This document shows positions 7,181-64,000 of a DNA stretch of 64,000 nt, piece by piece. The stretch covers positions 186,001 through 250,000 of the forward strand of contig NZ_CP018154.1 in assembly GCF_001889025.1 (NCBI RefSeq), given 5' to 3'. Within the stretch, counting starts at the first letter, position 1. The number at the start of each line of letters is the position of its first letter. The notes beneath the pieces were generated by a model that saw only the letters and a list, made by a program, of their open reading frames with translations, searched no databases and was not told where the DNA came from. The DNA is from Sphingorhabdus lutea. Its GTDB lineage: Bacteria > Pseudomonadota > Alphaproteobacteria > Sphingomonadales > Sphingomonadaceae. The position numbers and the translations under genes were made by a program.

Positions 7181-7224
7181 CGGCCCGTGCCTAGTAAGTT
7201 AACATTCTTAAATGGAGAGATATT

Positions 7225-7992: not shown

Positions 7993-8005
7993 TATGATTA
8001 AAATT

Positions 8006-9088: not shown

Positions 9089-10296
9089 TAAATAACCCCA
9101 TCAGATTTAAGAGCCGCTATATCCGCGCCATTATATCCCATTTCCGACAATATTTCGTCATTATCCGCGCCTAATAATGGCCCTGCTCTATTGGGCAGGC
9201 GCTGCCCATTTATTTTAATGGGACTGGACAAGATTTTAACATTTGCATTGTCCGGATGCGCCACCTCATCACGCATATTTATTTTATCCAACCATGGATT
9301 GTCCAATGCCTGATCCAAATTATAAACGGGCGATATGGGGACAAATCCCTCCAGCCTGTCCTGCCAATATCTAACCGGATGTTTGCCAAAAATTTCATCC
9401 AAAATTTCGGTTAAAATGGTGCGGTTTGTCAAACGATTGGCGGGGGTGTCAAATCGGGGGTCGCTCACCAATTCTTCATGCCCGATACGCGCGGCCAAAA
9501 TGGGCCAAAATTTGGGAATTTGCGCCATGACAAACATCCATCCATCGGCTGCCTTAAACATCTGGCTGGGCGTGGCGGATGGATGCGCACCGCGTGGCGC
9601 GCGGCCCGTCACATCGCCTTCATTCATATACCAAATGGCGGGGTAGCTTAATTGATGGATCGCCGCAGATAATAAATCCACATCGACATCGCATCCCTGT
9701 CCCGTTCTCTGTGCATCCAATAAAGCGGCAAGCAGACCAACCGCCATTTGTGTCCCGCTCATAAAATCAACCATGGACAGCCCAAATCGCGTTGGCGGGC
9801 CATCGGGTTCACCGGTTAGGGAGCAAAAACCTGCCTCTGCCTGCATTAAATAATCATATCCTGGCCATTTTGCCCGTTCATTATCCCGGCCATAGGCGGA
9901 AATATGGGCACAAATTATTTGAGGGTTCACTTCCTTTAATGCGGCATAATCAATGCCAATTTTGGCGGGCACATCACCGCGCATATTATTGGCCATGACA
10001 TGGGAAGTTTTAACCAATTTATGCAATATTTCTTTGCCCTTTTCTTGGGTCAAATCTAATGTCAGTGAACGCTTGTTCAAATTGAAACTTTGAAAATATA
10101 GGCTTTCTTTTTCCCGCAACCAATGTGGTCCTACATGACGCGCGGTATCGCCCATTTTGGGTGGTTCAATTTTAATGACATCCGCGCCCAATTGCGCCAA
10201 AAACATTGTGCCATATGGCCCTGCGCCATATTGTTCGGCGGACAGGACGCGAATGCCTTTTAACGGTTGGCGCACCGATGATGATGTGCCTGTCAT
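9088..10296 (-). CDS. CaiB/BaiF family (class III) CoA-transferase
   Basis: A 402-residue class III CoA-transferase using the ATG at 10296, which forms an ATGA overlap with the acyl-CoA dehydrogenase stop; a start seven codons further upstream is possible. Family features are the KGIRVLSAEQYGAGPYG N-terminus, LNKRSLTLDLTQEKG (about 73-87) and catalytic Asp177 (MVDFMSG). It transfers CoA to a carboxylic acid ahead of the neighbouring acyl-CoA dehydrogenase. Long-chain or dicarboxylic specificity cannot be read from sequence; context favours a methyl-branched C4-C6 dicarboxylate. Confidence 0.85.
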   Translation of the reverse strand: MTGTSSSVRQPLKGIRVLSAEQYGAGPYGTMFLAQLGADVIKIEPPKMGDTARHVGPHWLREKESLYFQSFNLNKRSLTLDLTQEKGKEILHKLVKTSHVMANNMRGDVPAKIGIDYAALKEVNPQIICAHISAYGRDNERAKWPGYDYLMQAEAGFCSLTGEPDGPPTRFGLSMVDFMSGTQMAVGLLAALLDAQRTGQGCDVDVDLLSAAIHQLSYPAIWYMNEGDVTGRAPRGAHPSATPSQMFKAADGWMFVMAQIPKFWPILAARIGHEELVSDPRFDTPANRLTNRTILTEILDEIFGKHPVRYWQDRLEGFVPISPVYNLDQALDNPWLDKINMRDEVAHPDNANVKILSSPIKINGQRLPNRAGPLLGADNDEILSEMGYNGADIAALKSDGVI

Positions 10297-44875: not shown

Positions 44876-47800
44876 TTACTCCCCTTTTCCATTGCTGTTT
44901 GTAGGAGCGCCCTCTTCACGTGGTGCGACACCAAAGTTTAACTCACCAAATTTACCTCGGGTCAGACGGATTGATTTTGGATTATCAAAAGTGACCTCCC
45001 AACCAATAGGCAGGGTTCGTGTGTCCACTTTCAAAACAAAGTTTGAACCGATACGTGCATCTGGCACCGCGGCACAGGCAATATGATAACGGCCAAATTC
45101 GTCGGTGGTTATCAATTGGCCGTTGACCGTGGCCAAACGAACACCAGCTATGCCAGGCTCATTTTCATCTTGATATCCATTACGGTTTCTATCTTCAAAC
45201 ACCTTGCCAAGCAGTTCAGAACAATCAAAAACCGCGCTGGGCACAATGGCCACTACGGCCGTACCACGGTTGGAAATGGCACTGAAATCCGCAGCATTTT
45301 GGGCAAGTCCGGTATTCACCTTTTCACCGCCGGTAACGCCCGCACCCACAACAAGGGTTAAATTATACCGCACCGAACCATTTGCCGGTATCACCTGACC
45401 TGTCCAACGCAGCTCTCGATTATTATTTGTGGCAATTGGTTCATTGGCAACACCATCTACCGACGCCGTGCCCAGCACATATTTCATGCCCGCTGGTAAA
45501 ATATCGACAACATCAACACCAGCGCGTTGTGCATTTTCGGTGTTACGCACGGTGATTTCATAGGGGACTAAGTCGCCTGTGCTGGCCGAACGTTTAATGC
45601 TGGTTTTGGTGACCACCAATGGCGTGCGGTTCAAAAATGGATCAAGCGCGATATGATTATTAACCACATCAGGATCGCCCGGTTGCAACCGGAAGCTAAG
45701 GTAAAATGGCGTGTCCGACCCTTGTGGTGGGGTTGCATCGGGTGAGATGCGAACTGGCGCAGGCAGGCCACTTGGGTCGAATGGACCAGGCAATGGCACC
45801 AACACTGTTGAACCATCGGCAAATCCAACTGGCGGAGTTACTTGGATAGTATAAACCGTTTCACTTGCTGGACATTGCGGTGCAGCACCTGGAATAATAT
45901 CAAAACGATATTCGCCGCTTGCTCCGGTTGTTTGGCTTGCCTGTGACGCATCAACAAAGCAAATGGAGGGCAATGGATTGCCATCTGGACCAAGCAAGCG
46001 GACCGTAACGCCGGAAATTGGGTTACGGGTGATGGAATCGTAAATAACGCCCGATGGATCAATGGGTTGGTTTTGATCAATAACAACCGTGTTATTGACA
46101 AGATTGACACCCTCAATCTTATCATAAACAACATTATTTTCTGGATTACGGAAAACAATATCATATCCAGGGCCGGATAAAAGCCCATCGACACGATAGT
46201 CGCCATTGGCGTCGGTTGTGGTGGTGGCCACAACAACACCGTCCTTCATAATTTCAACAATCCAACCTGCACGGCGTGGCTCATCAGGGCCGAGCACACC
46301 ATCACCATTAACATCGGTGAACACGGTACCGGTGACGGAACTGACCGGAGGTTCAACAACTACCGTCACCGTTGCAGTTTTGCAATTGGTGGGATTTAAT
46401 TTTTCACAAATTTGATATTCAATAATATATGTGCCATCGGGCACATTTGCCGTCACCGACACTATACCCGTTGCGGGATCAAGCACCACGCCAGCATGTG
46501 CCGCCGGTGTCAAAATGGTGACATTTATGTCATTCACATCGACAGGCGAACCGTTCAATATATCATTGGCAAAGGCGTTAATTGCATTGGGATTGCCTAC
46601 GCCGCTTCTTACCGGAGCAGGAACATCATTTGCCGCCAATATTTCTGGCGCCTCAACCACTATGGTTACATTACTGCTTGCACAATTGGTGGGGTTTAAC
46701 TTCTGACAAATTTCATAGGCAATGGTATAAGTGCCTGCGGGCGTGCCAACCGACACATCAACCAATCCGGTTGCAGGGTCCATGACAGGAACAGGCGCAC
46801 CGGGGGTAGCAGGCGTTGCTGGGGTCGTAATGGTCGCGTCAATATCCGCCACATTGACGGGCGCACCGTTTAAGCTGTCATTGGCAAAGGCATTGATAAT
46901 ATCATTACCGCCATTTGCACCATTTACTGGTGCGGGGCTATCCACATCCGCCATAATTGGCGCGGCATCCACGGTCACCGAAATAATGGCATTGGCGCAA
47001 TTTGTGGGGTTTAACTTCTCACAAATTTGATAGCCAATGGTATATGTGCCTGCTGGTGTGTTTGGCGCAACGCTGACCATGCCAGTTGCGGGGTCCAAAG
47101 TAACGCCTGCATGGCTGGCTGGGCTGGTCACGGTTACATTTATATCTGCGATGGCAACCGATGCACCGTTTAACATATCATTATTAAGCGCATTGATAAG
47201 ATTTGAACCGCCTGATATGCCAGGAACAGGGCCAACCGCATCATTGCTCGCGGCAATTGGCGCAGCGGTTACCACCACGGTCACATTATTGGTCGCGCAA
47301 TTATTGGGGTTTAACTTCTCACAAATTTCATAAGCAATGGTATAAGTGCCTGCTGGCGTGCCAACCGGCACATCCACCAATCCGGTGGCAGGGTCCATCA
47401 CGGGAACAGGCGCACCTGCAGTTAATGGCGTCGCGGGCGATGTAACAGTGGCTTCAATATCGGCGACATTGACCGGCGCACCGTTTAAGCTGTCATTGGC
47501 AAAGGCATTGATAATATCATTGCCGCCTGTCGCACCATTAACGGGTGCTGGGCTGTCCGCATCTGCCGTAATTGGCGCGGCGGTTACCACCACATTGACC
47601 GTGCTGCTTGCGCAATTATTGGGGTTTAACTTCTCACAAATTTCATAAGCAATGGTATAAGTGCCTGCGGGAGTGCCTGCTGGCACATCCACCAATCCGG
47701 TGGCGGGGTCCATCACGGGAACAGGCGCACCTGCGGTTAATGGCATTGCGGGCGATGTAACAGTGGCTTCAATATCGGCGACATTGACCGGCGCACCGTT

Positions 47801-50800
47801 TAAGCTGTCATTGGCAAAGGCATTGATAATATCATTGCCGCCTGTCGCACCATTAACGGGTGCTGGGCTGTCCGCATCTGCCGTAATTGGCGCGGCGGTT
47901 ACCACCACCTGAACTGTTGCGGTTTTGCAATTGGTCGGATTTGAATTTTCACAAATTTCATAAGCAATGGTATAAGTGCCTGCCGGTGTTCCGGCCGGAA
48001 CATCAACCAATCCGGTTGCAGGGTCCATGACAGGAACAGGCGCACCTGCGGTTAATGGCGTTGCGGGCGCGGTTATGGTCGCGCTAATATCCGCAACATT
48101 GACCGGCGCACCATTTAATGTGTCATTGGCAAAAGCATTGATAATATCATTACCGCCATTTGCACCATTAACGGGGGCGGGGCTATCATTGCTGGCATTT
48201 AATGGGGTAACATCCACAACCACGGCAATGGTTGCACTTTGGCAGTTGGTCGGGTTTAACTTTTCACAAATTTGATAGCCAATGCTGTAATTGCCCGCTG
48301 GTGTGCCAGGGGCGACGCTTACCTGACCCGTGGCGGTGTTTAATGTAACGCCCGCATTGCTGGCTGGTGCAGTTACGGTTAAGTTCACATCCGCCAAGGC
48401 AACAGGTGAACCATTTAATGTATCATTGCCAAGAGCATTGATAAGGTTCGCGCCGCCATTTGCGGTTGTTACCGTTCCAGCATTATCGTTCAACGCCGTA
48501 ATTGGCGCGGCCGAGACGATAACGGTCACGCTGCTATTCGCGCAGTTGGTGGGATTTGTTTTTTCGCAAATTTCATAGGCAATGGTATAAGTGCCTGCTG
48601 GAGTGCCTGCTGGCACATCCACCAATCCGGTGGCGGGATCCATCACGGGAACAGGCGCACCTGCGGTTAATGGCGTTGCTGGCGCGGTTATGGTCGCTTC
48701 AATATCCGCCACATTGACCGGAGAACCATTTAAGCTATCATTGGTAAAGGCGTTAACAATATCATTTGCGCCGGTGCGGCCATTTTGGGCGGGCGGCGTG
48801 TCTGCACTTGCCGCAATCGGGGTCACATTTACTGGAATTGTTACATTGGCAATCGCACAATTGCTTGGATTTAATTTTTCGCAAATTTGATAACCAATGC
48901 TATAATTGCCCGCTGGCGTGCCGGGGGCAACGCTTACCTGACCCGTGGCGGTGTTCATGGTAACGCCCGCATTGCTGGCCGGTGTAGTCACAGTGATATT
49001 AACATTTGATGCAGTTGGGGCAGCACCATTTAAACTATCATTGCCAAGGGCATTTACCAAATTGCTGCCGCCATTTGCGCTATTCACCGCTGGCGTGCTG
49101 TCATTATTGGCCGCAATTGGTGAAGCTGCCACCTGCACCGTGATGCTGGCATTGGCACAATTGGTTGGATTGGCATTTTCGCAAATTCGATAGCCAATGG
49201 TATAGCTGCCCGCTGGTGTGCCCGCAGGAACAGAAACCACACCCGTTGCCGTGTTTAATGATGGCACTGGTGCACCCGCAGACAGCGGAGTCGCAGGGCT
49301 GGTTACCGTTGCGGTGACCAGCGACAGGTTCACTGGATTGCCATTAAAGCTATCATTGGTAAAGGCATTGAAAGCATTTGTATTGCCCGCCGCACCATTT
49401 ACCGCAGGGCCGCTGTCATTACTTGCCGCAATGGGGGTCGGGGTGACGATAATTGTCGCAATAGCGGCCTCACAATTGGTTGGCACCGCGCTGTCGCAAA
49501 TTTCATATCCAATATTATATGTGCCCGCCGGTGTTCCAGCTGGCACAGAAACAACGCCCGTTGATATATTTAACGATGGCACAGATGCGCCGGCAAAGGC
49601 AGGGGTCGCGGGTGAAGTCACATTGATGGTGACATTCGGCGTTGTTGCCGCCCCGCCATTAAATGTATCATTGCTCAACACATTATATAGTGATGCAGAG
49701 CCATTGGTGCTGTTCACCGATGGGCCGCTATCGTCATCCGCATTTATCGGACGCAATGAAACATTGACTGTGGCAACCGCATTGGCACAATTGGTGGGGT
49801 TGCCAATTTCGCAAATTTGATAATTTATTGTATAATTGCCTGCTGGTGTGCCGGGGGCAACGCTAACTTGTCCAGTTGATGTGTTCAACGTCACGCCCGC
49901 ATGGGATGCAGGGGTGGTAACAGTAATCGCAACATTTGATGGAGTTGGCGCAGCGCCCTTCAAACTATCATTGCTTAAAACATTAAATGCATTGGCCTGT
50001 CCATCATTTGTGATGGTGCCTGATTGTGTGTCATTGCTTGCCGCAATGGGCGCACGCGGCACGGCGGTGACAGTTGCGTCATTATTGCCAGGTCCAGGGC
50101 CGGATTTGGTATTATTATTGCCATCGGCGGGGTTGGCGCTGTCCGAAACATCATTTACCACTGTTCCAGCAGCCGTATTACCGCTTGCAGTCGCGCTATT
50201 ATTAACGCCCGTTCCGCTTAAATCGCCCGCGACAAGGGAATAAACAGCGCTGTAAAACCATGTTTCGGTAAGGCCGATATATCCATCATTATTGGTATCG
50301 CCCGAAACATAGGTTGGTGTTGGGGGCGTGCCCGCACCGGTAAATGTGGTTTCGGTTAAGCTGGGGTTTCGCAAAGGCTCTGCGCCATAGGATTTTACTT
50401 GATAAATATAATTGATGGTTTCACCAACTTGGCCATAACCATCGCCATTTAAATCATTAAATGTCGATGCTTTGGTCACGCCAATGCCGGGATACCAAAC
50501 GGTTACTGTTGCCTGATTAGATTGGATGCCAAGCGCATTATCCACGGTATAATTTACAGTTGATGCATAGCCAACAAAGCTTGGATCGGGGGTGAATGTT
50601 AATTGCCCTGTTGTGTCACTATATGACCAGACACCCTCACCTGGAACGGTAAAGCCAATTACATCGCCAAAGCTGTCGGTGATAATGCCTGTTGCGGATG
50701 GCGGGGGGACAAGGTTCACCGATGCGCGTGCAAATTCAGACGCCTTTAAACTATTATTATTGGTGGGGTTATTATTTAATGTTGCCGAGCTGTCATTATC

Positions 50801-51604
50801 CAAAATATCGACAATAGTTGACGTTCCCGGCACGCCTTCTTTGGAATCATTAACCGTAACGGGCGGCTTAAAATCCGCGCATTCAAAATCCAATGTGTCA
50901 AATGCGCTATATGTTGGATTGTCAAAACGAATTAAAAAGCCGCTATTCGCAGTGCGTCCCATGGTAAATGTGCTGCGGTCTTTCCACAATGCTTCCAAAC
51001 CAGATACAGGCTGGTTATTATAATTTTGATCGCCGATTAAGCTGAATGTTTCCGCCTGCCCTGCAACCGCGCCAAAGGCGCGGCCCGTGGTGGCGGTGGC
51101 ATCAATTCGAACCCAGCTTATATCACCTTGACATACGGGCAGGTAAATACGTTCATTATTTGGGCCATCGACATCATTAAATTGAACATGCACATCGGCA
51201 ACCACTGGCACACCGCCGCTATTTGTTGTGATATTATATGTACCTGCACGATATAAACGCCATTCGATGAAAATATCATCCGGCCCCACGGAAGTAATAG
51301 AAGGCCGATTGGCTGTAGTGCTCCATGTATGGTTTAAGGTTGCGGTTGTGATGACACCGACAAGGTCAATTGTATCACTTCCCACCGTGCCTGCATTGGT
51401 CCAAATGGCTCTTTTGCCCTGACCAGTGCCAACAACTGTCGGTGTACCGACATTATTAACAACCAATGATGGTGCAGCCATTGCCGTACTGCTAGCCGCC
51501 AATATTGATGCGCCAGCTAGCCATTTTGCCCGTTTCAGCAATTTACGTGCCTGTTCAGACGATGAAATGACTGTCTTTTGATTATCAAAGGCTAAATGCC
51601 GCAT
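44876..51604 (-). CDS. Giant secreted repeat protein with SdrD-B-like and DUF11 domains
   Basis: A 2242-residue surface protein. Signal peptide at about 22-43 (WLAGASILAASSTAMA). An N-terminal beta-rich domain (to about 250) is followed by cadherin-like and DUF11-like segments (about 250-515). Twelve tandem repeats of 100-105 residues follow (about 517-1750), then an SdrD-B-like domain (GTVFTDVNGDGVLGPDEPRR), a carboxypeptidase-like module, a DUF11 domain (VRNTENAQRAGVDVVDILPAG) and a final SdrD-B-like domain (GKVFEDRNRNGYQDENEPG). Each repeat has two Cys in YxICExxNPxNC. No sortase, autotransporter or type I secretion signal is seen. Likely an adhesin or surface-layer stalk, coupled to the barrel gene downstream. 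Confidence 0.8.
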   Translation of the reverse strand: MRHLAFDNQKTVISSSEQARKLLKRAKWLAGASILAASSTAMAAPSLVVNNVGTPTVVGTGQGKRAIWTNAGTVGSDTIDLVGVITTATLNHTWSTTANRPSITSVGPDDIFIEWRLYRAGTYNITTNSGGVPVVADVHVQFNDVDGPNNERIYLPVCQGDISWVRIDATATTGRAFGAVAGQAETFSLIGDQNYNNQPVSGLEALWKDRSTFTMGRTANSGFLIRFDNPTYSAFDTLDFECADFKPPVTVNDSKEGVPGTSTIVDILDNDSSATLNNNPTNNNSLKASEFARASVNLVPPPSATGIITDSFGDVIGFTVPGEGVWSYSDTTGQLTFTPDPSFVGYASTVNYTVDNALGIQSNQATVTVWYPGIGVTKASTFNDLNGDGYGQVGETINYIYQVKSYGAEPLRNPSLTETTFTGAGTPPTPTYVSGDTNNDGYIGLTETWFYSAVYSLVAGDLSGTGVNNSATASGNTAAGTVVNDVSDSANPADGNNNTKSGPGPGNNDATVTAVPRAPIAASNDTQSGTITNDGQANAFNVLSNDSLKGAAPTPSNVAITVTTPASHAGVTLNTSTGQVSVAPGTPAGNYTINYQICEIGNPTNCANAVATVNVSLRPINADDDSGPSVNSTNGSASLYNVLSNDTFNGGAATTPNVTINVTSPATPAFAGASVPSLNISTGVVSVPAGTPAGTYNIGYEICDSAVPTNCEAAIATIIVTPTPIAASNDSGPAVNGAAGNTNAFNAFTNDSFNGNPVNLSLVTATVTSPATPLSAGAPVPSLNTATGVVSVPAGTPAGSYTIGYRICENANPTNCANASITVQVAASPIAANNDSTPAVNSANGGSNLVNALGNDSLNGAAPTASNVNITVTTPASNAGVTMNTATGQVSVAPGTPAGNYSIGYQICEKLNPSNCAIANVTIPVNVTPIAASADTPPAQNGRTGANDIVNAFTNDSLNGSPVNVADIEATITAPATPLTAGAPVPVMDPATGLVDVPAGTPAGTYTIAYEICEKTNPTNCANSSVTVIVSAAPITALNDNAGTVTTANGGANLINALGNDTLNGSPVALADVNLTVTAPASNAGVTLNTATGQVSVAPGTPAGNYSIGYQICEKLNPTNCQSATIAVVVDVTPLNASNDSPAPVNGANGGNDIINAFANDTLNGAPVNVADISATITAPATPLTAGAPVPVMDPATGLVDVPAGTPAGTYTIAYEICENSNPTNCKTATVQVVVTAAPITADADSPAPVNGATGGNDIINAFANDSLNGAPVNVADIEATVTSPAMPLTAGAPVPVMDPATGLVDVPAGTPAGTYTIAYEICEKLNPNNCASSTVNVVVTAAPITADADSPAPVNGATGGNDIINAFANDSLNGAPVNVADIEATVTSPATPLTAGAPVPVMDPATGLVDVPVGTPAGTYTIAYEICEKLNPNNCATNNVTVVVTAAPIAASNDAVGPVPGISGGSNLINALNNDMLNGASVAIADINVTVTSPASHAGVTLDPATGMVSVAPNTPAGTYTIGYQICEKLNPTNCANAIISVTVDAAPIMADVDSPAPVNGANGGNDIINAFANDSLNGAPVNVADIDATITTPATPATPGAPVPVMDPATGLVDVSVGTPAGTYTIAYEICQKLNPTNCASSNVTIVVEAPEILAANDVPAPVRSGVGNPNAINAFANDILNGSPVDVNDINVTILTPAAHAGVVLDPATGIVSVTANVPDGTYIIEYQICEKLNPTNCKTATVTVVVEPPVSSVTGTVFTDVNGDGVLGPDEPRRAGWIVEIMKDGVVVATTTTDANGDYRVDGLLSGPGYDIVFRNPENNVVYDKIEGVNLVNNTVVIDQNQPIDPSGVIYDSITRNPISGVTVRLLGPDGNPLPSICFVDASQASQTTGASGEYRFDIIPGAAPQCPASETVYTIQVTPPVGFADGSTVLVPLPGPFDPSGLPAPVRISPDATPPQGSDTPFYLSFRLQPGDPDVVNNHIALDPFLNRTPLVVTKTSIKRSASTGDLVPYEITVRNTENAQRAGVDVVDILPAGMKYVLGTASVDGVANEPIATNNNRELRWTGQVIPANGSVRYNLTLVVGAGVTGGEKVNTGLAQNAADFSAISNRGTAVVAIVPSAVFDCSELLGKVFEDRNRNGYQDENEPGIAGVRLATVNGQLITTDEFGRYHIACAAVPDARIGSNFVLKVDTRTLPIGWEVTFDNPKSIRLTRGKFGELNFGVAPREEGAPTNSNGKGE
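46350..50055 (-). repeat. Twelve in-frame tandem repeats (300-315 bases each)
   Basis: Two subtypes are interleaved. The long type (105 residues) contains TPLTAGAPVPVMDPATGLVDVP; the short type (100 residues) contains ASNAGVTLNTATGQVSVAPG. Reading from the N-terminus the order is short, long, long, short, long, short, long, long, long, short, long, short. The units at about 47346-47660 and 47661-47975 are nearly identical at DNA level with a 315-base period, a recent duplication. Long runs of open frame on the opposite strand here are by-products of the repeats. Confidence 0.85.
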
Positions 51605-51787: not shown

Positions 51788-52792
51788 TTAAGAGAAAAAT
51801 ATTCGTTCAAAAAACCAATAGCTGGCCCAGCCTCCAAAAATATAGGCGCAACATTTAACAATATAATCCTGCCATTTGGCCATAAATTTCCCGATTAACG
51901 CCAAAATTAACAAGGCGCAAAGAATCACCAATATCTGGCCCGCCTCAACGCCCACATTAAATGATAATAGGGCAAGCGGCATGTCTGTCTGCGGCAGGCC
52001 AATTTCTGACAATGCACCGGCAAATCCAAATCCGTGCAACAACCCAAAAATAAAGGCCACAATCCATGGACGGCGCGATGTTAAATGCACCTTGCCCCTT
52101 TGCGCCGCAATAATCTCTGCGGCCAGAAATATGATGGACAGCGCGATAATCGCCTCTACGGGTCGTTGCGCCAACCCCATATATCCAAGGCTGCTGCCCA
52201 CCAATGTAATGGAATGGGATAGGGTAAAGGCGCTGGCCGCGATTAAAATGCTGCGCCCACGGCGGATGAGAAGAACAAGGCAAAGCACAAATAATAAATG
52301 GTCAAACCCAAATAAAATATGCTCCACCCCAATGTAAAAATAATCCACAGCAATTTGATAAGGGCCAGCATCCGCCAAAATTTTCATAAATGGCCGCGAT
52401 GCCATTAAACGGCCGCTTTCAATGGGGCGGCCCAATAATTGCACGCGCACCAATATGTCGGTCTGGCTGGCTTCCAAATTGGACAATCCAATTTCCCTCC
52501 CCACCAAAGTTAAGCCGCAACGCGCATCCCATTTACGTATGACCGATTGGGGCGTTTGTGATGTTGAGGTTAATTTTAATATGCAATCCTTGGGGAATAT
52601 GGGAATGCTTTGCGGCCCAATTCCGGTGCGCAGAGGGGCTTTCCAGATAATGTGATATATTGATGCAGATTGTTGATTTACCTCATAATATCCGGGACGA
52701 AGCTCATCCGCATGGGCCAAATATGGCATAGATAAAATCATCGCAGAAAATGCGACAAAACGCCAAAATAATGACATAAAATTCATATTCAT
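51788..52792 (-). CDS. HupE/UreJ family membrane protein
   Basis: A 334-residue protein with a signal-like first helix (to about residue 28), a periplasmic domain of about 130 residues, and a C-terminal membrane domain with six or more helices. GVEHILFGFDHLLF (about 154-167), TLSHSITL (about 189-196), GLLHGFGFAGAL and FNVGVEAGQ are the HupE/UreJ_2 motifs rich in His and Asp, suited to metal (nickel or cobalt-like) binding. It overlaps the parvulin gene by four bases. This pairing recurs in alphaproteobacteria; the transported metal, if any, is unknown. Confidence 0.82.
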   Translation of the reverse strand: MNMNFMSLFWRFVAFSAMILSMPYLAHADELRPGYYEVNQQSASIYHIIWKAPLRTGIGPQSIPIFPKDCILKLTSTSQTPQSVIRKWDARCGLTLVGREIGLSNLEASQTDILVRVQLLGRPIESGRLMASRPFMKILADAGPYQIAVDYFYIGVEHILFGFDHLLFVLCLVLLIRRGRSILIAASAFTLSHSITLVGSSLGYMGLAQRPVEAIIALSIIFLAAEIIAAQRGKVHLTSRRPWIVAFIFGLLHGFGFAGALSEIGLPQTDMPLALLSFNVGVEAGQILVILCALLILALIGKFMAKWQDYIVKCCAYIFGGWASYWFFERIFFS

Positions 52793-53652
52793 TTTAACGG
52801 TGCAATCTTGACATCATATCCATTTAACAATGCCTGATATGCCTTTTCCTTACGTTCATTTATATATTTGGATTGCCAATCATCAATCAACCGCGCCTCT
52901 ATTTGCGATATGGGCGGAGAATAGGGCGGGCTTTGTTTGGCAATAAATATCACATGGTCGCCAAAACCCGACTGCACTGGTCCGGACCATTTGCCATGTG
53001 GTAATTTGGCCAATTGGTCGGCAAAAGCTTCGCCAAATTCGCGGTTGATATTTGCCGGATCGGCGCCATTTATTTTGCCGCGCAATGATGTGCGCTGCCC
53101 CACCTTATTTGGCTCAACACCGCCATTTAATTGGGCAATAATGGACGCAGCATCGTCATTTTTTCCTAATAATATTTGCTGAAAATCCCAAAATGGTCCA
53201 TTTTGATATTTGGCCTTATTCTCATTGTAAAATGCCTGTAATTGGGAATTAGTGGGCCGTTTATCTTCGGCCGCTTCCATCACCAAAACCTCCATTTTCG
53301 CGCGCATCCGCCGCCGAACAATCGGATCATCCTGATCCAAGCCCAAACGCAAAGCCTCCCGATAATATATTTCCTCGCGAATATAATCACGTATCAGCAT
53401 GTCCACCTCATCACGCGATGCGGGGCGGCCCATGGTGGCGGCGAAACCCTGTGCCAATATGGTCGCCTTTTCCTCGGTTACCTCAATTTTTCGGTCTTCG
53501 GGGCTCACATCATTTGACCCGCCCAAGATGAAAAATATCAATAATCCCAATATCATGAAATGCAGCAACGGCTCATTCGCCCATGATTTTATTTTATCCT
53601 TATGCGCAATTGCCCAATTCGGCATCGCCATTCCCCCCATATAAATGCGCAA
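52789..53652 (-). CDS. Membrane-anchored parvulin-type peptidyl-prolyl isomerase
   Basis: A 287-residue protein with an N-terminal hydrophobic anchor (LLHFMILGLLIFFILGG, about 29-45) and a periplasmic part. A SurA-N-like helical segment (about 55-125) leads to a rotamase-like domain (about 125-245). It assists folding of exported proteins. Several ATGs (53652, 53640, 53631) could be the start; the first is kept. The downstream HupE-like gene is translationally coupled. Confidence 0.8.
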   Translation of the reverse strand: MRIYMGGMAMPNWAIAHKDKIKSWANEPLLHFMILGLLIFFILGGSNDVSPEDRKIEVTEEKATILAQGFAATMGRPASRDEVDMLIRDYIREEIYYREALRLGLDQDDPIVRRRMRAKMEVLVMEAAEDKRPTNSQLQAFYNENKAKYQNGPFWDFQQILLGKNDDAASIIAQLNGGVEPNKVGQRTSLRGKINGADPANINREFGEAFADQLAKLPHGKWSGPVQSGFGDHVIFIAKQSPPYSPPISQIEARLIDDWQSKYINERKEKAYQALLNGYDVKIAPLK

Positions 53653-56411: not shown

Positions 56412-57509
56412 TTAAAATTTCAATGGCCCATGTTCAATATGGGGCAATACATGGCGTGAGAATAAATCACATTCTGCGGCATGGGGATATCCGGACAAAA
56501 TAAACGCCTCAATCCCTGCATCCTGATATGCTTTTAATTTTTTCAGAACCTGATCAGGATCGCCGACAATTGCGGCGCCGCAGCCCGAACGTGCACGGCC
56601 AATACCCGTCCATAAATTATCCTCTACAAAGCCATCGCCGCCCGCTGCACCGCGAAGCTCCGCCTGACGCTGCACCCCGTAATTTTTGGCATCCAGCGAT
56701 TTATTGCGAATGGCATCGCCGGTTTCACTATCCAATTTTGACAATAAACGATCGGCATAGGCACGCGCCTCTTCCTCCGTTTCGCGTACAATCACATGGG
56801 CACGATAGCCAAATTTCATGGTGCGGCCATATTTTGCGGCCCGCGCCGTAATATCAGCAATATTTTCCTTCACCTTATCCATGGTGTCGGGCCACATTAA
56901 ATATACATCACATGCCTCTGCGGCTGCTTCGCGCGCTTCATGGCTTAATCCACCAAAATATAGCGGCGGGCATTTGCCCGAACGGGTCGCGATACGCGGC
57001 GGTTCAACCTCCAATTGATAAAATTCACCCTGATGGTTTAAATATTCACCCGCCAACATGGTTTTAAGGATTTTCATCACCTCCACCGTGCGGGCATAGC
57101 GCGGGGCGCTATCCATATTTTCACCAGGCATGGGCGATGAAATAATATTCACGTTCAAACGGCCCGATGTGCCGTCGCTATTTGCACCCAAAATTTGGTC
57201 CAATGTGGCAATACGGCGGGCCAATTGTGGTGGCCAATCTTCGCCAATACGTACCGCCCAAAGCAGTTTTAAACGTTCCAAAAATGGCGCAATGGCCGCC
57301 GCAAATATGGTGGTATCAATGCCCAATTGATAACCAGAGGGCAGCAATATATTGTCATATCCGCCCTTTTCCGCTGTCATCACAATATTACGGCAATGTT
57401 CCCAGCTGGATTGCAGGGCCGGATCAACCTGTCCCAAAAATTCATAATCATCGTCGCATAGCGCCGAAAACCAGCTTATCTCGCATTGTTTTTTCACATT
57501 CTCACTCAT
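56412..57509 (-). CDS. smoC: SsuD-like flavin-dependent sulfonate monooxygenase, probable sulfoquinovose monooxygenase
   Basis: A 365-residue luciferase-like monooxygenase. The layout (WFSALCDDDY..., LLPSGYQLGIDT, RLNVNIISSP, PPLYFGGLSHEAREAAAE and C-terminal ILSGYPHAAECDLF) matches the SsuD/alkanesulfonate branch. In the oxidative sulfoquinovose pathway this enzyme uses reduced FMN and oxygen to release sulfite and leave 6-oxo-glucose. Its gene neighbours (aldo/keto reductase with a four-base overlap, and the GH31 enzyme) give the pathway assignment. The flavin reductase partner (SmoA) is not in the window. The alternative is a general alkanesulfonate monooxygenase. Confidence 0.78.
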   Translation of the reverse strand: MSENVKKQCEISWFSALCDDDYEFLGQVDPALQSSWEHCRNIVMTAEKGGYDNILLPSGYQLGIDTTIFAAAIAPFLERLKLLWAVRIGEDWPPQLARRIATLDQILGANSDGTSGRLNVNIISSPMPGENMDSAPRYARTVEVMKILKTMLAGEYLNHQGEFYQLEVEPPRIATRSGKCPPLYFGGLSHEAREAAAEACDVYLMWPDTMDKVKENIADITARAAKYGRTMKFGYRAHVIVRETEEEARAYADRLLSKLDSETGDAIRNKSLDAKNYGVQRQAELRGAAGGDGFVEDNLWTGIGRARSGCGAAIVGDPDQVLKKLKAYQDAGIEAFILSGYPHAAECDLFSRHVLPHIEHGPLKF

Positions 57510-58414
57510 GGTAAAGCAACTCCTCTAGCAGCGACCAGCACATCATACCAATCATTCCGCGTCCATTTTACATTCAAACTTTCCATCGCCTCGGCAATGC
57601 GTTCCACCCGCTGTGACCCGATAATCGGGATGATGCGTGCAGGATGCGCCATAATCCAGCTATATGCCGCCGATGTGCGCGACACGCCCTGTTCATTTGC
57701 AACCCTGTCCAATACAGCAACCACCGCTTTTTCACGGTCATTTTGCGGATCGGCAATCCGCCCGCCGCCAAGGGGCGACCATGCCATTATTTTCATGCCC
57801 AATCGCATTGCCTGATCCAATTCGCCATTTTCGGCAATATCAATGCGAAGGGGTGAAAATTCGGGCTGGGTTGTTGCAATGGGAATGGTCAGAAAATGGT
57901 TTAACGCCTCTATCTGCGCCTGTGTCATGTTCGACACGCCCAAATTCAAAAATTTGCCTGCCTTATGCGCATTTTCCAATGTGCGCGCCAATTCCTGTGG
58001 ATGGGTTAAAATATCTGGACGGTGGATTTGCCATAAATCCATTTGCTCCACACCCATGCGGGTTAAGGATGCGTCCATCGCCTTTGCCAGATAATCTGCG
58101 CTGCTGTCATATGGGATGGGCGGCATAATCCCGCCCTTGCTGGCCAAGAACATCCGGTCCCGTAATGATGCATCACGGGCAAAAACCTTGCCCAATAATG
58201 TTTCAGAATCGCCAAAACCATCATTGCCGTTAAACCCGTAAATATCGGCTGTATCGAACAGGGTGATGCCTGCTTCCAATGCACCATTTACCAATTTTTC
58301 CGCCGCATCGACATCATCGCCAACAAAACGCCACATGCCCCATGCTATGGGGGATAAGGCGATTTTACTATCGCCCAAATGATGCGGGGCCGGGGAGGGT
58401 AGATATTGGTTCAT
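57506..58414 (-). CDS. smoB: Aldo/keto reductase, probable 6-oxo-glucose reductase
   Basis: A 302-residue aldo/keto reductase with the complete tetrad Asp54, Tyr59 (DTADIYG), Lys93 (ASKGG) and His131 (WQIHRPD). The YdhF-like group to which it looks closest is the one that includes SmoB, the NADPH-dependent enzyme that converts 6-oxo-glucose to glucose. Context (monooxygenase and sulfoquinovosidase in one operon) supports that role. The cofactor-binding SPLGGGRI and IIGSQRVERI segments are present. Confidence 0.78.
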   Translation of the reverse strand: MNQYLPSPAPHHLGDSKIALSPIAWGMWRFVGDDVDAAEKLVNGALEAGITLFDTADIYGFNGNDGFGDSETLLGKVFARDASLRDRMFLASKGGIMPPIPYDSSADYLAKAMDASLTRMGVEQMDLWQIHRPDILTHPQELARTLENAHKAGKFLNLGVSNMTQAQIEALNHFLTIPIATTQPEFSPLRIDIAENGELDQAMRLGMKIMAWSPLGGGRIADPQNDREKAVVAVLDRVANEQGVSRTSAAYSWIMAHPARIIPIIGSQRVERIAEAMESLNVKWTRNDWYDVLVAARGVALP

Positions 58415-58453
58415 ATATTTTCCTGACTATTGATATTTTTATTTGTTAGATTT

Positions 58454-59461
58454 TCATTTTATATTATTTTTTATGACAGATTTTCGTTGCACCAATTGAT
58501 GCACCAAACGTTGATGGCTTATCTCATCCCCCTTTAACAACAGGTCCGCCGCACGAAAGCCAAGGTCAAACATTGGTTGGTGAATGGTGGTCAATGGCGG
58601 CCAAACGGTCCGCGCCATGGTGGTATCGTCAAATCCCGCAACCGATAATTTTTGCGGCAAAGAAATGCCTCTATCATGTGCCTCTGCCAAAACGCCTGCG
58701 GCCATGTCATCATTACTGGCAAAAATGGCCGTTGGTGGATGCTTCATATCCAAAAAATATTTGCCCGCACGAACGCCGCTATCAAAATCAAATTGCCCCT
58801 CGGCCACCAATTGCGGTTCAAATGCAATGCCCGCACGGTCCAGCGCACGGCGATACCCAAATTGCCGATCATTGGATGCCATATGATTTTGATGGCCGGT
58901 GATAAACCCAATTCGGCGATGACCAAAATTGATCAAATGGCTGGTCATATCGTCGGCGGCCTGTGCATCATCCATAAATACCGATGATGTCATGGCATGA
59001 TTTGTGCCGGGGGAAATACGCACAAATGGTGTGCCCATCCCCTCCAACACGCGCAAGACAGCATCGCAATCGGTCACGGGGGAAGATAAAATTACGCCGT
59101 CCATATGCGCCTCTTTCACCAATGCGGCAACCTGTGCGCCAACATCTGGATCATCAACATTGACCGGCTGTGCCAATAAACGCACCTTGCCCTCATGGCA
59201 TCTTTCCCAACATCCCGATTGAATTTGATGCATATAATAGGGGCTGTGATTATCATATATTAACGCAATTTGACCCGATTTTGTTCCGGCCAGCACACGT
59301 GCGGCCATATTGGGCCGAAAATCAAGCTGCGCCATTGCATCCTCAACCTTTTTACGGGTCGCGTCGCTGACATATTGATGATCGTTCAACACGCGGCTGA
59401 CTGTTTTTACAGACACCCCCGCCAATGCAGAAACATCGCGGATATTTGACCGTTCAGCCAT
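58454..59461 (-). CDS. LacI family transcriptional regulator
   Basis: A 335-residue regulator. Start chosen at ATG 59461, where SNIRDVSALAGVSVKTVSRVLN is the LacI helix-turn-helix; the upstream open frame lies over the GH31 gene. The sugar-binding core follows (SVFMDDAQAADDMTSHLINFGHRRIGFI). It overlaps the GH31 stop by eight bases, so it sits inside the operon and probably controls it in response to a sulfosugar or its metabolite. Confidence 0.9.
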   Translation of the reverse strand: MAERSNIRDVSALAGVSVKTVSRVLNDHQYVSDATRKKVEDAMAQLDFRPNMAARVLAGTKSGQIALIYDNHSPYYMHQIQSGCWERCHEGKVRLLAQPVNVDDPDVGAQVAALVKEAHMDGVILSSPVTDCDAVLRVLEGMGTPFVRISPGTNHAMTSSVFMDDAQAADDMTSHLINFGHRRIGFITGHQNHMASNDRQFGYRRALDRAGIAFEPQLVAEGQFDFDSGVRAGKYFLDMKHPPTAIFASNDDMAAGVLAEAHDRGISLPQKLSVAGFDDTTMARTVWPPLTTIHQPMFDLGFRAADLLLKGDEISHQRLVHQLVQRKSVIKNNIK

Positions 59462-61523
59462 ATTTCTCCCCTTGATTTTCACTGTTCCGTGCAGAGCATA
59501 GTCCAGCAAAGAGTTGAGAAAAAGTGCTATTTTCTTTATAAAATACGGGCGGTTCACCATAGGGAGAGGCAACATCATGCCAACCAGAAGTAAATTTTTT
59601 ACCCGACCATAAATGCACCCAATTTTCACCAGCGGGCAGATATAATTTTCGGCTAAATTGATCCGCCTCTATTATGGGGGCGACCAGCATATCTGTGCCA
59701 TATAAATATTGATCCTGCATGTCGCCTACTTCACTATCATCTGGATAATGTAGGAAAAGCGGGCGTTGCAGGGGAAGGCCATCTTTAACAGCCTGATCGC
59801 TCATAAATCGAACATAGGGGGCAAGCGCCAAATGCACCCGCGACATGGCGGCGAAATGCGACAATAAGTCATCATTGCTATCATATTGCAGATTATCATC
59901 GGGCCGATTGCCCTCATGCGAACGCATTACCGGTGTAAATGCGCCAAGTTCGGCCCAGCGTTTCATTAAATCGGCCGTGCGAATATTACCGTGCAGCGAA
60001 GTATAGCCGCCCACATCATGATGGCTATATGCATTGCCGACAAGCCCCGCAGAAAGCGCCGCAGTGATTACCGTGCCAATGCCGTCATGGCGGGAAAAAT
60101 CAACACATTGGTCGCCCGCCCATAAAAGCGGGCAATGCGCCTGAACCCCGCTTGCCCCCGCGCGCATAAAAAAGACAATATCATCGCGGCCGCGCGATTT
60201 TACTGCCATATCATTTACTTTGGCCCATAATAATGGCCATAAATTATGCGCCTCCATCGGGTCGCTGCCATCATGAAGGCGCAAATCAATGGGCAGATAT
60301 TCACCAAAATCGGCCATCCATCCCGACAGGCCAAAATCAATCATTTGCTTCGCGATAATTTCCTCGGCAAACCATTTTTGGGTTTCAGGACGCGTAAAAT
60401 CCACCACGCCGCAATCAAATTGCCCAAAATCCACCAAATATGGCTCATCATCATGCAGGTTTAACGCCAAATGACCGCCCGACTTCGCCTCAGCAAATTG
60501 TGCGGCATCCACCGCAATATAGGGGTTAACATATCCCAAGAAACGGATATTTTTTTCGGCCAATTCCTTTATCCGATTAGGCAAATCGGGATATCTTGCC
60601 TCATTCCACGACCAATTCCAAAATAATCGGCGACCAAAATCGGTTTGCCTTATCCCGACCCAATCTTCACACCATAAACCCGAAATGGCGGTGCCAGCAT
60701 CGGCAAATTTTTCCAAACGGGCAAAGCTATTATCGCCATCTTTCAATCCAATTATCGCGCCGCCAATTGCCCAATTGGGCAATGCAGGTTGCCGGCCAAA
60801 ATATTGCGCCAATTGTCCAACGATAGACAATTGATTTTCGCCCATGAATAATTTGATATTTAACTCATTATTCCAATATGTTATTTTATGACTATCGCGC
60901 GATGTAAAATCCATCTCTGCATAGGCCGTGCCATCAATATGACAGGCATAATGACGATCGGAAATAAATGTCGGCTGCGGATAATTGCTGGTCCAATAAT
61001 CACCACCCGCCATGCCGTCGGCGTCCATAATTTTTGTTAATTCGGTCGATTTGTCACGGCCAACCCCCGGCTCGCTGGTCCAAATGGGAAAATTGCGCCC
61101 GCGCAGATTTAAATAGCTCATCTGCTCCCCACCACCATATATATGCTCATTTTCCAGAGCATTAAGTGACATGACGATTCGGTTTATTTCTGGGTTGCTC
61201 GCCTTTATATTGAGTGTAAAATAGCCATCCTGCTGCTCTAATTGTAAAATAATGGACTGGCCGTCATCTTCGCCCGATCCAGCCTTATTTAAAAGGGTGA
61301 CGCGCTGCGCCTCGCAATTTTGGACGATATAGGGCGAATATACCGATTTTAATGTATCGGCGATTTTGAAATTCCCGCGCACCATTTCAACATCTTCATC
61401 ACCAATGGCAATGGTGAATGCAGGCGATTTTTCACGATGCGACAAAAGGCACAACTGCCCCAACATCAAATCGAAACCATTGTCTAATGCCCTAAATTCT
61501 GCCATTTTTAATGTTGAAGACAC
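59454..61523 (-). CDS. smoI: GH31 sulfoquinovosidase
   Basis: A 689-residue GH31 enzyme starting at GTG 61523, which is preceded by GGGGAA. Recalled E. coli YihQ sequence gives a direct match: nucleophile Asp405 (WMADFGEYLP), acid/base Asp471 (WAGDQCVDFS), and the sulfonate/sugar recognition set Lys261 (GLKDG), Glu286 (WCEDW), Arg299 and Trp302 (RRLFW), and Tyr507 (GGYTSL). This is the K-E-R-W-Y type described for Agrobacterium-like sulfoquinovosidases, where YihQ has Q-Q-R-W-Y. It releases sulfoquinovose from sulfoquinovosyl glycerol or lipids. It has no signal peptide, so it acts in the cytoplasm. First gene of the operon. Confidence 0.88.
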   Translation of the reverse strand: MSSTLKMAEFRALDNGFDLMLGQLCLLSHREKSPAFTIAIGDEDVEMVRGNFKIADTLKSVYSPYIVQNCEAQRVTLLNKAGSGEDDGQSIILQLEQQDGYFTLNIKASNPEINRIVMSLNALENEHIYGGGEQMSYLNLRGRNFPIWTSEPGVGRDKSTELTKIMDADGMAGGDYWTSNYPQPTFISDRHYACHIDGTAYAEMDFTSRDSHKITYWNNELNIKLFMGENQLSIVGQLAQYFGRQPALPNWAIGGAIIGLKDGDNSFARLEKFADAGTAISGLWCEDWVGIRQTDFGRRLFWNWSWNEARYPDLPNRIKELAEKNIRFLGYVNPYIAVDAAQFAEAKSGGHLALNLHDDEPYLVDFGQFDCGVVDFTRPETQKWFAEEIIAKQMIDFGLSGWMADFGEYLPIDLRLHDGSDPMEAHNLWPLLWAKVNDMAVKSRGRDDIVFFMRAGASGVQAHCPLLWAGDQCVDFSRHDGIGTVITAALSAGLVGNAYSHHDVGGYTSLHGNIRTADLMKRWAELGAFTPVMRSHEGNRPDDNLQYDSNDDLLSHFAAMSRVHLALAPYVRFMSDQAVKDGLPLQRPLFLHYPDDSEVGDMQDQYLYGTDMLVAPIIEADQFSRKLYLPAGENWVHLWSGKKFTSGWHDVASPYGEPPVFYKENSTFSQLFAGLCSARNSENQGEKYG

Positions 61524-61714
61524 GCTATTTTATTCCCCATTTCCCCGATTATTATGTTGCCATAGTGCAACAGTAATTGCGTATGACACCGCTTGACATA
61601 ACAATCTATACCGCTCTATGCAAGTATCGAGAAATGAATAAGCGAAAAAAAGTTTATCCATCTCGATTAAGATAGAAACGGAAAAACCGTATAACATTTT
61701 TTTAGGAGGAACGA
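61524..61714. promoter_or_regulatory. Divergent promoter region of the sulfoquinovose locus
   Basis: Between the GH31 gene and the TonB-dependent receptor gene. TTGACA (61593-61598) with TATGCA 18 bases later is a candidate plus-strand promoter. The hyphenated repeat TGTTGC-catagt-GCAACA at 61555-61572 is a candidate LacI operator. AGGAGGA (61704-61710) is the receptor's ribosome site. Confidence 0.55.
61555..61572. promoter_or_regulatory. Candidate LacI-family operator
   Basis: TGTTGC and GCAACA arms with a six-base centre, extended by ATTA/TAAT on the outer flanks. It lies between the diverging sulfoquinovosidase and receptor genes, where the operon's LacI regulator would control both. Its assignment is inference from position and symmetry. 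Confidence 0.45.
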
Positions 61715-64000
61715 ATGAGCAATCGCCAAAATGGCCTTAGCAAATTGACCAAGAGCCTTGCATATTGCGGCTCTGTATCATTATTCGCACTTGCAATGGC
61801 GGCTCCCGCCCATGCACAGGTCGAAGAAATCGTTGTGACCGCACAAAAGGTTGAACAAAATGTTCAAGATGTGCCAATTTCCATCACCGCCATTTCGGGC
61901 GATCGTTTGACCGAAACAGGCACAAACAGCCTTGAAAATATTGGCGATCTTGTTCCTTCGGTTACTTTCCGCAAAGGCACAACCAATGCGAACAGCGCGA
62001 TTGTGATGCGCGGCGTTGGCACGATTACCTTTTCTGTTGCCGCAGAGCCAAGTGTTTCAACCGTTGTTGACGGTGTTGTTTTGAGCCGTTCTGGCCAATC
62101 CTTCATCGATTTATTGGATTTGGAGCGCATTGAAATTTTGCGCGGACCACAGGGCACATTATTTGGTAAAAACGCCTCTGCTGGTTTGGTCAATATCGTA
62201 TCAAAAGGCGGCACTGACAGTTTTGAAGCATCAGCAAATGCCGAATATTTTGAAGGCGACGAATATCGTTTCCGTGGTTCGGTTTCCGGCCCAATTGCCA
62301 AAGATCTTTCCGCACGTGTAACCGGTTTTTACGGCAGCTATGATGGTAATATTACCAACATCAACACCGCTGCAACAACCGCGGCAGACAGCGGCAAAAA
62401 AGTCAATGGCTATGAACATTATGGCGCGCGCGGCATTTTGGATTATAATGGTCCATCGGCTAAAATTCGCTTGATTGCCGATTATTTCAAGGCAAATGAC
62501 GATTGCTGTGCAGAGGTTACCGGTGTTTCACGCGGCGCAACTTTGGATGCTGAACTTGGCCTTCCCGGCGGCGTTGCACTTGGCGAAGATCAACGTTATG
62601 TCAATCATAATCTTGTCACACAAAGCCTTGATACACAATGGAGCTTAACCGGTTCAGCCGATATTGATGTTCCTGGCGATCATGTGCTTAGCGTGATTTT
62701 AGGCTATCGCAATTGGCAAAATACCGAATTGCGCGAAGGTGATTTCTTGCCCCGCGCTGTTGTCGGCACCGCCCAATTGCATGACGAAGGTTTTGTTGAA
62801 ACTGATCAAATGTCGGCGGAAGTCCGTCTTGCATCTGATCAATCAAAGCCTTTCTCTTATCAAGTTGGCACATTTATTTGGCACAGCAATAATAAACAAG
62901 ATTTCACACGCCGTGATATTGTTTGTTCTGCATCCACCTTGCCCGTTGCGACAAGTGGCGCCACACCTTGTGATGTTAACAACACCACATTGACCACTTT
63001 CCCAACCGCCACATCGGCAAGTGACGTGAACAGCACCAACTTTGCCATTTTTGGACAAGGTACATATCGTTTCACTGATATGCTAAGCCTAACCGCTGGC
63101 CTGCGTTGGACAAGAGACGAATTGTCGTTCAATCACTTCCGTGCACCTGGCGTTAATGCGACCACTGGTCTGCCTTTGACGGGTCCTGGCGTTTCCGGCA
63201 ACCCGGCGGGCGGCACAGTTGCAAGCGGCGGTAACGGCACCAATGTATCCGTTGGCGAAAGCGCGAACAGCAATTTCTCTGGCAAGGCATCATTGCAATT
63301 TGAACCAAGTGATGACTTGCTATTTTATGCAAGCTATACACGCGGTTATAAAGGCCCTGCGTTTAACGTCTTCTTCAACCATACAGCACCAACCAATGCC
63401 GTGCCAATAGATGAAGAATTGTCAGACAGCTATGAAATTGGCATGAAGTCACAATTTTTGAACGATATGGTTCAATTTAACACATCATTATTCCATGTGA
63501 CCTATGATGGGTTCCAAGCGAACAACTTTATCGTTCTAAACGGTGCAACTGTAACCAACCTGACCAATGCAGGCACAGTGCGCAGCAAAGGTTTTGAAGC
63601 CGATGCGATTATCAGCCCAGTCCAAGGTCTGAATTTCCGTGGTAGCGTGGCCTATGCCGATGCAAAGGTTAAGAAGTTTAATCCCAACCCAATCACCAAC
63701 GCACCAGATGCGCGTAATGGCACCCGCTTGCCATTGGCACCAAAATGGTCATGGAATGTTGGCGCGGATTATGAAACCGAGCTTGGCGCTTCGATGAAGC
63801 TATATGCCAGCACAATTTATAGCTATACTGGCGATCAATTCTCCGACCTTGGTGAGGGCGGCCCGATTGACAGCTATGGTATTTGGAATGCCAGCCTTGG
63901 CTTTGGCGATGCGGACGATAAATATCGTCTGACATTCCATGCGCGCAATATTGGCGATACCAGCTATATTTTGCTGAACACAAGTGCAGGACAACGTTTG
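61715..64000 (+). CDS. TonB-dependent outer-membrane receptor (continues beyond window)
   Basis: An open frame from ATG 61715 to the window end (762 codons, no stop). A signal peptide (AYCGSVSLFALAMAAPAHAQ) is followed by the TonB box EEIVVTAQK, a plug domain (about 50-165: VPISITAISGDRL, IVMRGVG, DRIEILRGPQGTLFGKNASAG-type segment) and barrel strands (for example YASYTRGYKGPAFNVFF, SYEIGMKSQFLND). It resembles sphingomonad receptors for organic substrates rather than classic siderophore receptors. Position divergent from the sulfoquinovosidase operon suggests uptake of a sulfoquinovose glycoside; that is inference. Confidence 0.88.
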   Translation, partial: MSNRQNGLSKLTKSLAYCGSVSLFALAMAAPAHAQVEEIVVTAQKVEQNVQDVPISITAISGDRLTETGTNSLENIGDLVPSVTFRKGTTNANSAIVMRGVGTITFSVAAEPSVSTVVDGVVLSRSGQSFIDLLDLERIEILRGPQGTLFGKNASAGLVNIVSKGGTDSFEASANAEYFEGDEYRFRGSVSGPIAKDLSARVTGFYGSYDGNITNINTAATTAADSGKKVNGYEHYGARGILDYNGPSAKIRLIADYFKANDDCCAEVTGVSRGATLDAELGLPGGVALGEDQRYVNHNLVTQSLDTQWSLTGSADIDVPGDHVLSVILGYRNWQNTELREGDFLPRAVVGTAQLHDEGFVETDQMSAEVRLASDQSKPFSYQVGTFIWHSNNKQDFTRRDIVCSASTLPVATSGATPCDVNNTTLTTFPTATSASDVNSTNFAIFGQGTYRFTDMLSLTAGLRWTRDELSFNHFRAPGVNATTGLPLTGPGVSGNPAGGTVASGGNGTNVSVGESANSNFSGKASLQFEPSDDLLFYASYTRGYKGPAFNVFFNHTAPTNAVPIDEELSDSYEIGMKSQFLNDMVQFNTSLFHVTYDGFQANNFIVLNGATVTNLTNAGTVRSKGFEADAIISPVQGLNFRGSVAYADAKVKKFNPNPITNAPDARNGTRLPLAPKWSWNVGADYETELGASMKLYASTIYSYTGDQFSDLGEGGPIDSYGIWNASLGFGDADDKYRLTFHARNIGDTSYILLNTSAGQRL

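Follow-up and report, generated by a model that had tools for sequence, protein, structure and literature searches.

A probable sphingomonad version of the oxidative sulfoquinovose system in Sphingorhabdus lutea, with a divergent TonB-dependent receptor

Gene content and enzymes of the locus

The analyzed DNA stretch of Sphingorhabdus lutea, referred to below as the window, comprises 64,000 nucleotides, bases 186001–250000 of a single contig of 2,533,041 bp. A group of genes at its end appeared to encode the oxidative degradation of sulfoquinovose (SQ), known as the sulfo-SMO or sulfo-ASMO pathway, and we describe its gene content and order, conserved residues, shared operator, and conservation among sphingomonads. 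The minus strand between 56412 and 61523 encodes an SQ monooxygenase of the SmoC type, an aldo/keto reductase of the SmoB type, a LacI-family regulator, and a GH31 sulfoquinovosidase; the plus strand carries a divergent TonB-dependent receptor (TBDR) from 61715 onward. All five genes lie where the original prediction, made from the sequence alone, had placed them, and the sulfo-SMO gene set that it claimed was borne out for SmoC, SmoB, and GH31 by family scores, nearest solved chains, and residues.

The SmoC gene (SquD; 56412–57509, minus strand) matches PF00296 with 157.6 bits, and its product is predicted to be FMNH2-dependent. Next in order of coordinates are SmoB (57506–58414, minus strand; PF00248, 183 bits), which would convert 6-dehydroglucose to glucose, and the LacI-family regulator (58454–59461, minus strand), containing PF00356 and PF13377. 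The start of the latter near 59461 was assigned by eye, and the mechanically called open reading frame extends to 59629. The GH31 gene occupies positions 59454–61523 of the same strand. Overlaps of 8 bp between GH31 and LacI and of 4 bp between SmoB and SmoC are operon-like. The GC content of the operon (48%) equals that of the window (48%), and base composition thus gave no sign of recent acquisition.

The GH31 protein scored 871.7 bits against the YihQ-type model PRK10426 (cut-off 553), which itself is labeled alpha-glucosidase. The six closest solved chains, led by the YihQ-named 5ohy, scored from 815 (5ohy) to 615 bits, and the next one only 169 bits. Residues Lys261, Glu286, Arg299, Trp302, and Tyr507, together with Asp405 and Asp471, are present at the predicted numbering. 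For comparison, 80 named sphingomonad loci were collected by their SmoC genes, and other genes in them were scored by bit-score thresholds. All seven residues are invariant in the 71 of these 80 loci whose GH31 was long enough for alignment. The protein therefore contains the complete K-E-R-W-Y set and the pair of aspartates characterizing sulfoquinovosidases, which we take to be responsible for sulfonate recognition and catalysis, respectively. No signal peptide was seen by eye. The predicted cytoplasmic location had been considered unusual, but this is not supported, since other GH31 sulfoquinovosidases are likewise cytoplasmic.

The nearest structures of the monooxygenase were 7olf (363 bits) and 7oh2 (353 bits), while E. 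coli SsuD scored 184 bits. Against the SsuD equivalog model TIGR03565 it reached 252 bits, about half of the cut-off of 518.2, and is therefore not assigned to SsuD itself. Residues Trp206, Arg236, His238, Tyr341, and His343 are invariant in all 80 relatives; we assume their functional roles, and the same set is presumably also found in SsuD. The aldo/keto reductase has the full tetrad expected of it (Asp54, Tyr59, Lys93, and His131, with roles that we likewise assume), invariant in 80/80 relatives, and is closest to 7bbz (157 bits) and 7bby (156 bits). The names of these PDB entries are generic, and nothing relevant on PDB identifiers of SmoC or SmoB was found in the literature; we take 7olf and 7oh2 to be SmoC, and 7bbz and 7bby to be SmoB. 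The joint presence of SmoB and SmoC is the feature by which sulfo-SMO/ASMO clusters are recognized in the consulted part of PMC13372026.

Second half of the locus, shared operator, and conservation

The TBDR gene (61715–64000 within the window, plus strand) encodes a protein of 781 amino acids with both the Plug (PF07715) and beta-barrel (PF00593) domains and ends 60 bases beyond the window. The following genes are given in coordinates of locus L002 (G000:C1:246000-265000), which covers this region. An MFS transporter (4495–5787, minus strand), whose nearest solved relative is a D-galactonate carrier, is divergent from a block of plus-strand genes encoding a YeiH-type exporter (5958–7052; PF03601, 190 bits, cut-off 24.5), GlpD (about 7067–8563), an FMN-reductase-type protein (FMNred; 8560–9123; PF03358, 82 bits, cut-off 24), and, as the last gene, a RibB-like protein (9120–9710). 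This GlpD is the only match in the whole genome. The absence of an inner-membrane transporter and a flavin reductase had been noted as unusual and a look past base 64000 had been proposed; the absence turned out to be an effect of the window edge, since the MFS transporter, the exporter, and the PF03358 reductase-type gene are located 0.5 to 5.7 kb beyond it and supply next-door candidates for the missing functions.

The spacer between GH31 and TBDR contains an operator-like palindrome, TATGACACCGCTTGACATA, at positions 61582–61600, and a matching site lies between the MFS transporter and YeiH (L002 5884–5902); the common palindrome of the two spacers is TATGACACCGCnnGACATA. In the whole 2.53-Mb genome it occurs without mismatches only twice, at 247582 and 251883. 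With up to 3 mismatches allowed, 3 further matches were found, compared with 5 for a control with the reversed pattern. Since the same palindrome is present in both spacers and nowhere else error-free, the two divergent halves look like one regulon. The 80 loci offered 69 GH31/TBDR and 28 MFS/YeiH spacers for examination, and all of these had a best palindrome score of at least 11/14 (67 and 20 spacers, respectively, reached at least 12/14), while the means after shuffling were about 9. A fixed motif, derived from the spacer sites themselves and hence not independent of them, gave 127 matches across the 80 loci, compared with 0 when each locus was subjected to a single mononucleotide shuffle. 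In the 9 loci lacking it, the contig stops in or before GH31. In L018 a site lies between SmoC and the GlpD-FMNred-RibB-YeiH block, and in L073 directly ahead of FMNred-RibB-YeiH. The palindrome is predicted to be bound by the LacI protein.

SmoC and SmoB are present in 80/80 loci, LacI in 76, and GH31 in 74. Of the 68 loci that contain GH31 and more than 2.5 kb of upstream sequence, 67 have the TBDR next to GH31 in divergent orientation; the remaining one, L050, was scored as lacking TBDR but does contain a TBDR frame on the opposite strand beside GH31. This arrangement, judged by gene content, is the norm in the sphingomonad family and not unusual as originally thought. The proposed collection of the substrate through an outer-membrane receptor did find support in the conservation of the divergent TBDR along with the operator-bearing spacer, and we consider TBDR the probable outer-membrane entry for the SQ system. 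Genes of the second half were detected less frequently (MFS in 64/80 loci, YeiH in 55, GlpD in 47, FMNred in 25, and RibB-like in 24), and the examined stretches often end inside this block. The full locus is present, for example, in the culturable sphingomonads Tsuneonella litorea (L008) and N. kunmingense (L020). GlpK was found in 11/80 loci, and on plasmid pLA3 of N. pentaromativorans the annotated order is TBDR-GH31-LacI-AKR-LLM-GlpD-GlpK. These two findings point to a natural substrate that yields glycerol, namely sulfoquinovosyl glycerol (SQGro).

Matches to SmoC were found in 3 of 5 relatives from the genus of the window (G187, G242, and G319). These proteins are only 72–75% identical to SmoC of S. 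lutea, compared with up to 83% in other genera, and the three genomes lack FMNred and RibB-like genes. One genus thus appears to contain two locus types, and an exchange of locus types is possible. SmoC genes with 77–79% identity were also found on six large Novosphingobium plasmids (H1–H6), indicating that the locus can be plasmid-borne. In L057, a metagenome contig of 10,242 bases, SmoC-SmoB-LacI is present twice as inverted copies, representing either an inverted duplication or an assembly artefact.

Proposed pathway, the flavin reductase, and the RibB-like protein

Taken together, the data make it probable that this locus is the form which the oxidative sulfoquinovose (sulfo-SMO/ASMO) system takes in sphingomonads, acting on SQGro, the delipidated sulfolipid headgroup. 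In the predicted scheme, whose substrates, transport direction, and protein partnerships are deduced from gene identity and context, TBDR would import SQGro through the outer membrane, and the MFS carrier would bring it into the cytoplasm. There GH31 could cleave it to SQ and glycerol; SmoC, with FMNH2 supplied by the co-encoded PF03358 protein, would convert SQ to sulfite and 6-dehydroglucose, which SmoB could reduce to glucose. Glycerol may be used via glycerol kinase and the co-encoded GlpD, and sulfite or sulfate would be exported by the YeiH-type protein. The LacI protein would repress both divergent units via the one shared operator.

Several observations weigh against parts of this scheme. 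The YeiH-type protein scored 114.9 bits with TIGR00698, under the cut-off of 232.6, despite its match to PF03601. The solved relatives of TBDR, which match it in the N-terminal plug part, are for the most part receptors for siderophores, haem, B12, and bacteriocins, and its ligand is therefore not deducible from them. FMNred falls far under the SsuE and MsuE equivalog cut-offs (TIGR03567, 24.9 vs 164 bits; TIGR03566, 23.8 vs 212.5 bits), many sphingomonad loci lack both FMNred and the RibB-like gene, and in L073 the FMNred frame is broken into two. The FMNred family is also wider than SmoC: at E 1e-30, 90 of the 298 family genomes have a member. In L109, L115, and L119, which come from genomes with neither SmoC nor a RibB-like gene, an FMNred-type gene lies after GlpD. 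FMNred may thus not be dedicated to SmoC; the GlpD-FMNred of these three loci looks like a glycerol-linked pair. The genome of S. lutea was searched for flavin reductases of the PF01613 type, other reductase families not being covered, and none was found, unlike in 13 of 14 control genomes.

The PF03358 protein is nevertheless the best candidate, judging from its family and position, for the reductase of SmoC in the loci where it is present. Besides the PF03358 match, its AlphaFold model (pLDDT 91.4) shows the corresponding fold, matching ArsH, FerB, SsuE, and MsuE. No PF01613-like frame was detected in the 80 loci at E 1e-3 with query proteins from six regions of relatives that contain PF01613. 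The occurrence of the two families was compared in 39 SmoC genomes, namely 38 of 50 assemblies and S. lutea itself, with FMNred called at 229 bits or more and three weak matches (42–135 bits) scored as absent. FMNred is present in 14 of them, and seven of these 14 lack PF01613, vs 0 of the 25 genomes without FMNred (Fisher p 2e-4). The test takes genomes as independent and is uncorrected for kinship, genome size, and draft quality; the PF01613-less genomes are in fact related, rather small, and partly metagenome drafts, and the 12 assemblies left out, all with the RibB-like gene, make the test incomplete. Alternatively, the PF03358 protein could be an enzyme of the quinone- or azo-reductase type tied to GlpD, with FMNH2 for SmoC coming from another cellular reductase. 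This is possible although rather unlikely: the pairs with GlpD in genomes without SmoC, the absence of FMNred from many loci, and its nearest solved relatives (azo/quinone reductases by sequence, ArsH and FerB by fold) agree with it, while the placement of FMNred in a block behind an operator shared with the SQ genes, its presence in 7/7 of the tested SmoC genomes lacking PF01613, and its location within about 100 bp of SmoC in genome G162 argue against it.

The RibB-like protein is 52–64% identical to its 34 aligned relatives. Its structural model (pLDDT 90.5) matches 3,4-dihydroxy-2-butanone 4-phosphate (DHBP) synthases with a TM-score of about 0.9 and about 36% identity. The catalytic residues of DHBP synthase are given as Glu39, Glu41, and His154 in the consulted part of PMC5228156, with numbers one lower in E. 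coli. Upon alignment of the 35 members to E. coli RibB, in whose numbering residues are given here, the equivalents of Arg37, Asp42, His136, and Arg150 were found to be kept in 35/35. Glu40 is replaced by Asp in all 35, Glu38 mostly by Gly (24; also Arg in 5, Asp in 3, and His in 1, with Glu retained in 2), His153 by Ala (28) or Thr (7), and Glu174 by Ser (24) or Ala (11). Any role of Glu174, His136, and Arg150 is our assumption. Thus, in 33/35 members two catalytic residues, Glu38 and His153, are replaced in addition to the change of Glu40. The protein of S. lutea has His, Asp, and Ala at the three catalytic positions and so lacks the catalytic set of a DHBP synthase. An initial impression that the whole RENEGD motif was lost was dropped after ungapped alignment with E. 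coli RibB.

The distribution of this protein was compared with that of SmoC. A profile search of the 298 family genomes, with at most 10 candidates scored in each, gave scores of at least 256.9 bits for 24 genomes, followed by a gap down to 227.9, where long RibBA-type frames begin. The RibB-like gene was present in 24 of 78 SmoC-positive genomes (E 1e-120) and in none of 220 others (p 5e-16, uncorrected for kinship). Its carriers span thirteen genus groups, at least four of which also include SmoC-positive relatives without it. Among the 30 best FMNred loci, a RibB-like gene stands alongside in 24/24 SmoC genomes and 0/6 SmoC-negative ones; in L098 its frame lacks the first part. When the 50 assemblies were searched whole, 25 had a standalone RibB-like gene (50–57% identity), 24 of them, by coordinates, at the edge of the locus or no more than 1.8 kb from it, and one elsewhere (contig identity was deduced). 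Throughout the sampled genomes the protein was found solely together with SmoC loci, and the block that contains it has the SQ operator at its head.

We tentatively suggest, with slightly less than even confidence, that this is a dedicated sphingomonad protein of the RibB fold that has lost DHBP-synthase chemistry and acquired a new role in SmoC-type desulfonation, no longer relying on the metal site of DHBP synthase, for example in handling SQ or 6-dehydroglucose or in passing reduced flavin from FMNred to SmoC. Our guess is that, for the reaction of SmoC, it binds a ligand related to a sugar acid or to flavin. A second DHBP synthase boosting the supply of riboflavin and FMN during SQ use would suit the fold, the FMN dependence of the pathway, and the retained Arg37, Asp42, and His136 equivalents; it is improbable given the altered catalytic set and the presence of RibBA with an intact motif elsewhere in the genome.

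The scavenging of sulfur from various sulfonates, with SmoC acting on alkanesulfonates like SsuD or MsuD and GH31 being an ordinary alpha-glucosidase, is very unlikely and was rejected, because the monooxygenase, although a member of the SsuD family presumably sharing its sulfonate-site residues, misses the TIGR03565 cut-off and is nearer to 7olf and 7oh2, while GH31 retains its sulfonate-recognition residues and the linkage with SmoB, GlpD, and GlpK speaks for a carbon source.

At lower coordinates than the locus, the minus strand of the window contains a 2242-amino-acid open frame (44876–51604) with many similar repeated modules, resembling by eye a large surface protein. Two overlapping genes at 51788–53652, membrane-protein-like and peptidyl-prolyl-isomerase-like by eye, adjoin an ETF-quinone-oxidoreductase-like gene at 53712.

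Relation to known systems and implications

The SquD/SquF pathway of N. aromaticivorans was reportedly described by Liu et al. in 2021, and the sulfo-SMO/ASMO cluster of Agrobacterium tumefaciens reportedly by Sharma et al. in 2022. The locus of S. lutea shares SmoC/SquD and SmoB/SquF with the former, which is also a sphingomonad and whose sulfo-ASMO enzymes are covered in consulted parts of the literature (PMC9594981, section 10; PMC12890257). The difference is the PF03358 gene within the apparent regulon of the S. lutea locus; the consulted section of the review presumes other flavin reductases where a cluster lacks SsuE, with N. aromaticivorans as an example (PMC9594981, section 10). TBDR, the shared operator, and the RibB-like protein are not named for N. 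aromaticivorans in the consulted parts of PMC9594981 and PMC12890257. A. tumefaciens shares both core enzymes and also has a sulfoquinovosidase, with SQGro as the transported substrate; it employs an ABC transporter for SQGro (PMC9594981, consulted part), whereas TBDR and MFS are found in S. lutea.

A plasmid of Ruegeria sp. THAF33 (Roseobacter-type) carries an LLM monooxygenase with 53% identity and an adjoining aldo/keto reductase. Unlike in S. lutea, the regulator there is of the GntR type, the transporter is a TRAP system, the flavin reductase belongs to PF01613 (122 bits), and GH31 is not annotated in the stretch examined. A PF01613 reductase like that of Ruegeria is missing in S. lutea, where the PF03358 protein may stand in. 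One SmoC-SmoB core is therefore combined with varied transport: ABC in Agrobacterium (PMC9594981, consulted part), TRAP in Ruegeria, and TBDR, MFS, and YeiH in sphingomonads. A plasmid of Rhizobium sp. WSM4643 (L130) has a SmoC-like gene (68% identity) with a LacI regulator and an ABC sugar transporter as neighbors; it was rejected as an example of an ABC-type cluster, since SmoB and GH31 were not found within 10 kb. Consulted literature on sulfoquinovose in connection with TonB, Novosphingobium, flavin reductase, RibB or riboflavin, and LacI apparently contains no description of these parts of the system, although figures of the 2022 and 2021 papers may show TBDR. The pathway is thus known, while the arrangement of transport, regulation, and reductase is new, and one conserved protein is unexplained.

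The annual production of sulfoquinovose amounts to about 10 billion tons (PMC10755693, consulted part), and labeling experiments showed Novosphingobium to be actively using SQ (PMC13372026, consulted part). The locus of S. lutea looks able to take up this headgroup sugar of plant and algal sulfolipid and to remove its sulfur. It supplies a testable outer-membrane route for the sulfoquinovose headgroup and a candidate for the flavin reductase left open in the literature. The operator would define the sulfoquinovose regulon, and the RibB-like protein represents a family tied to desulfonation.

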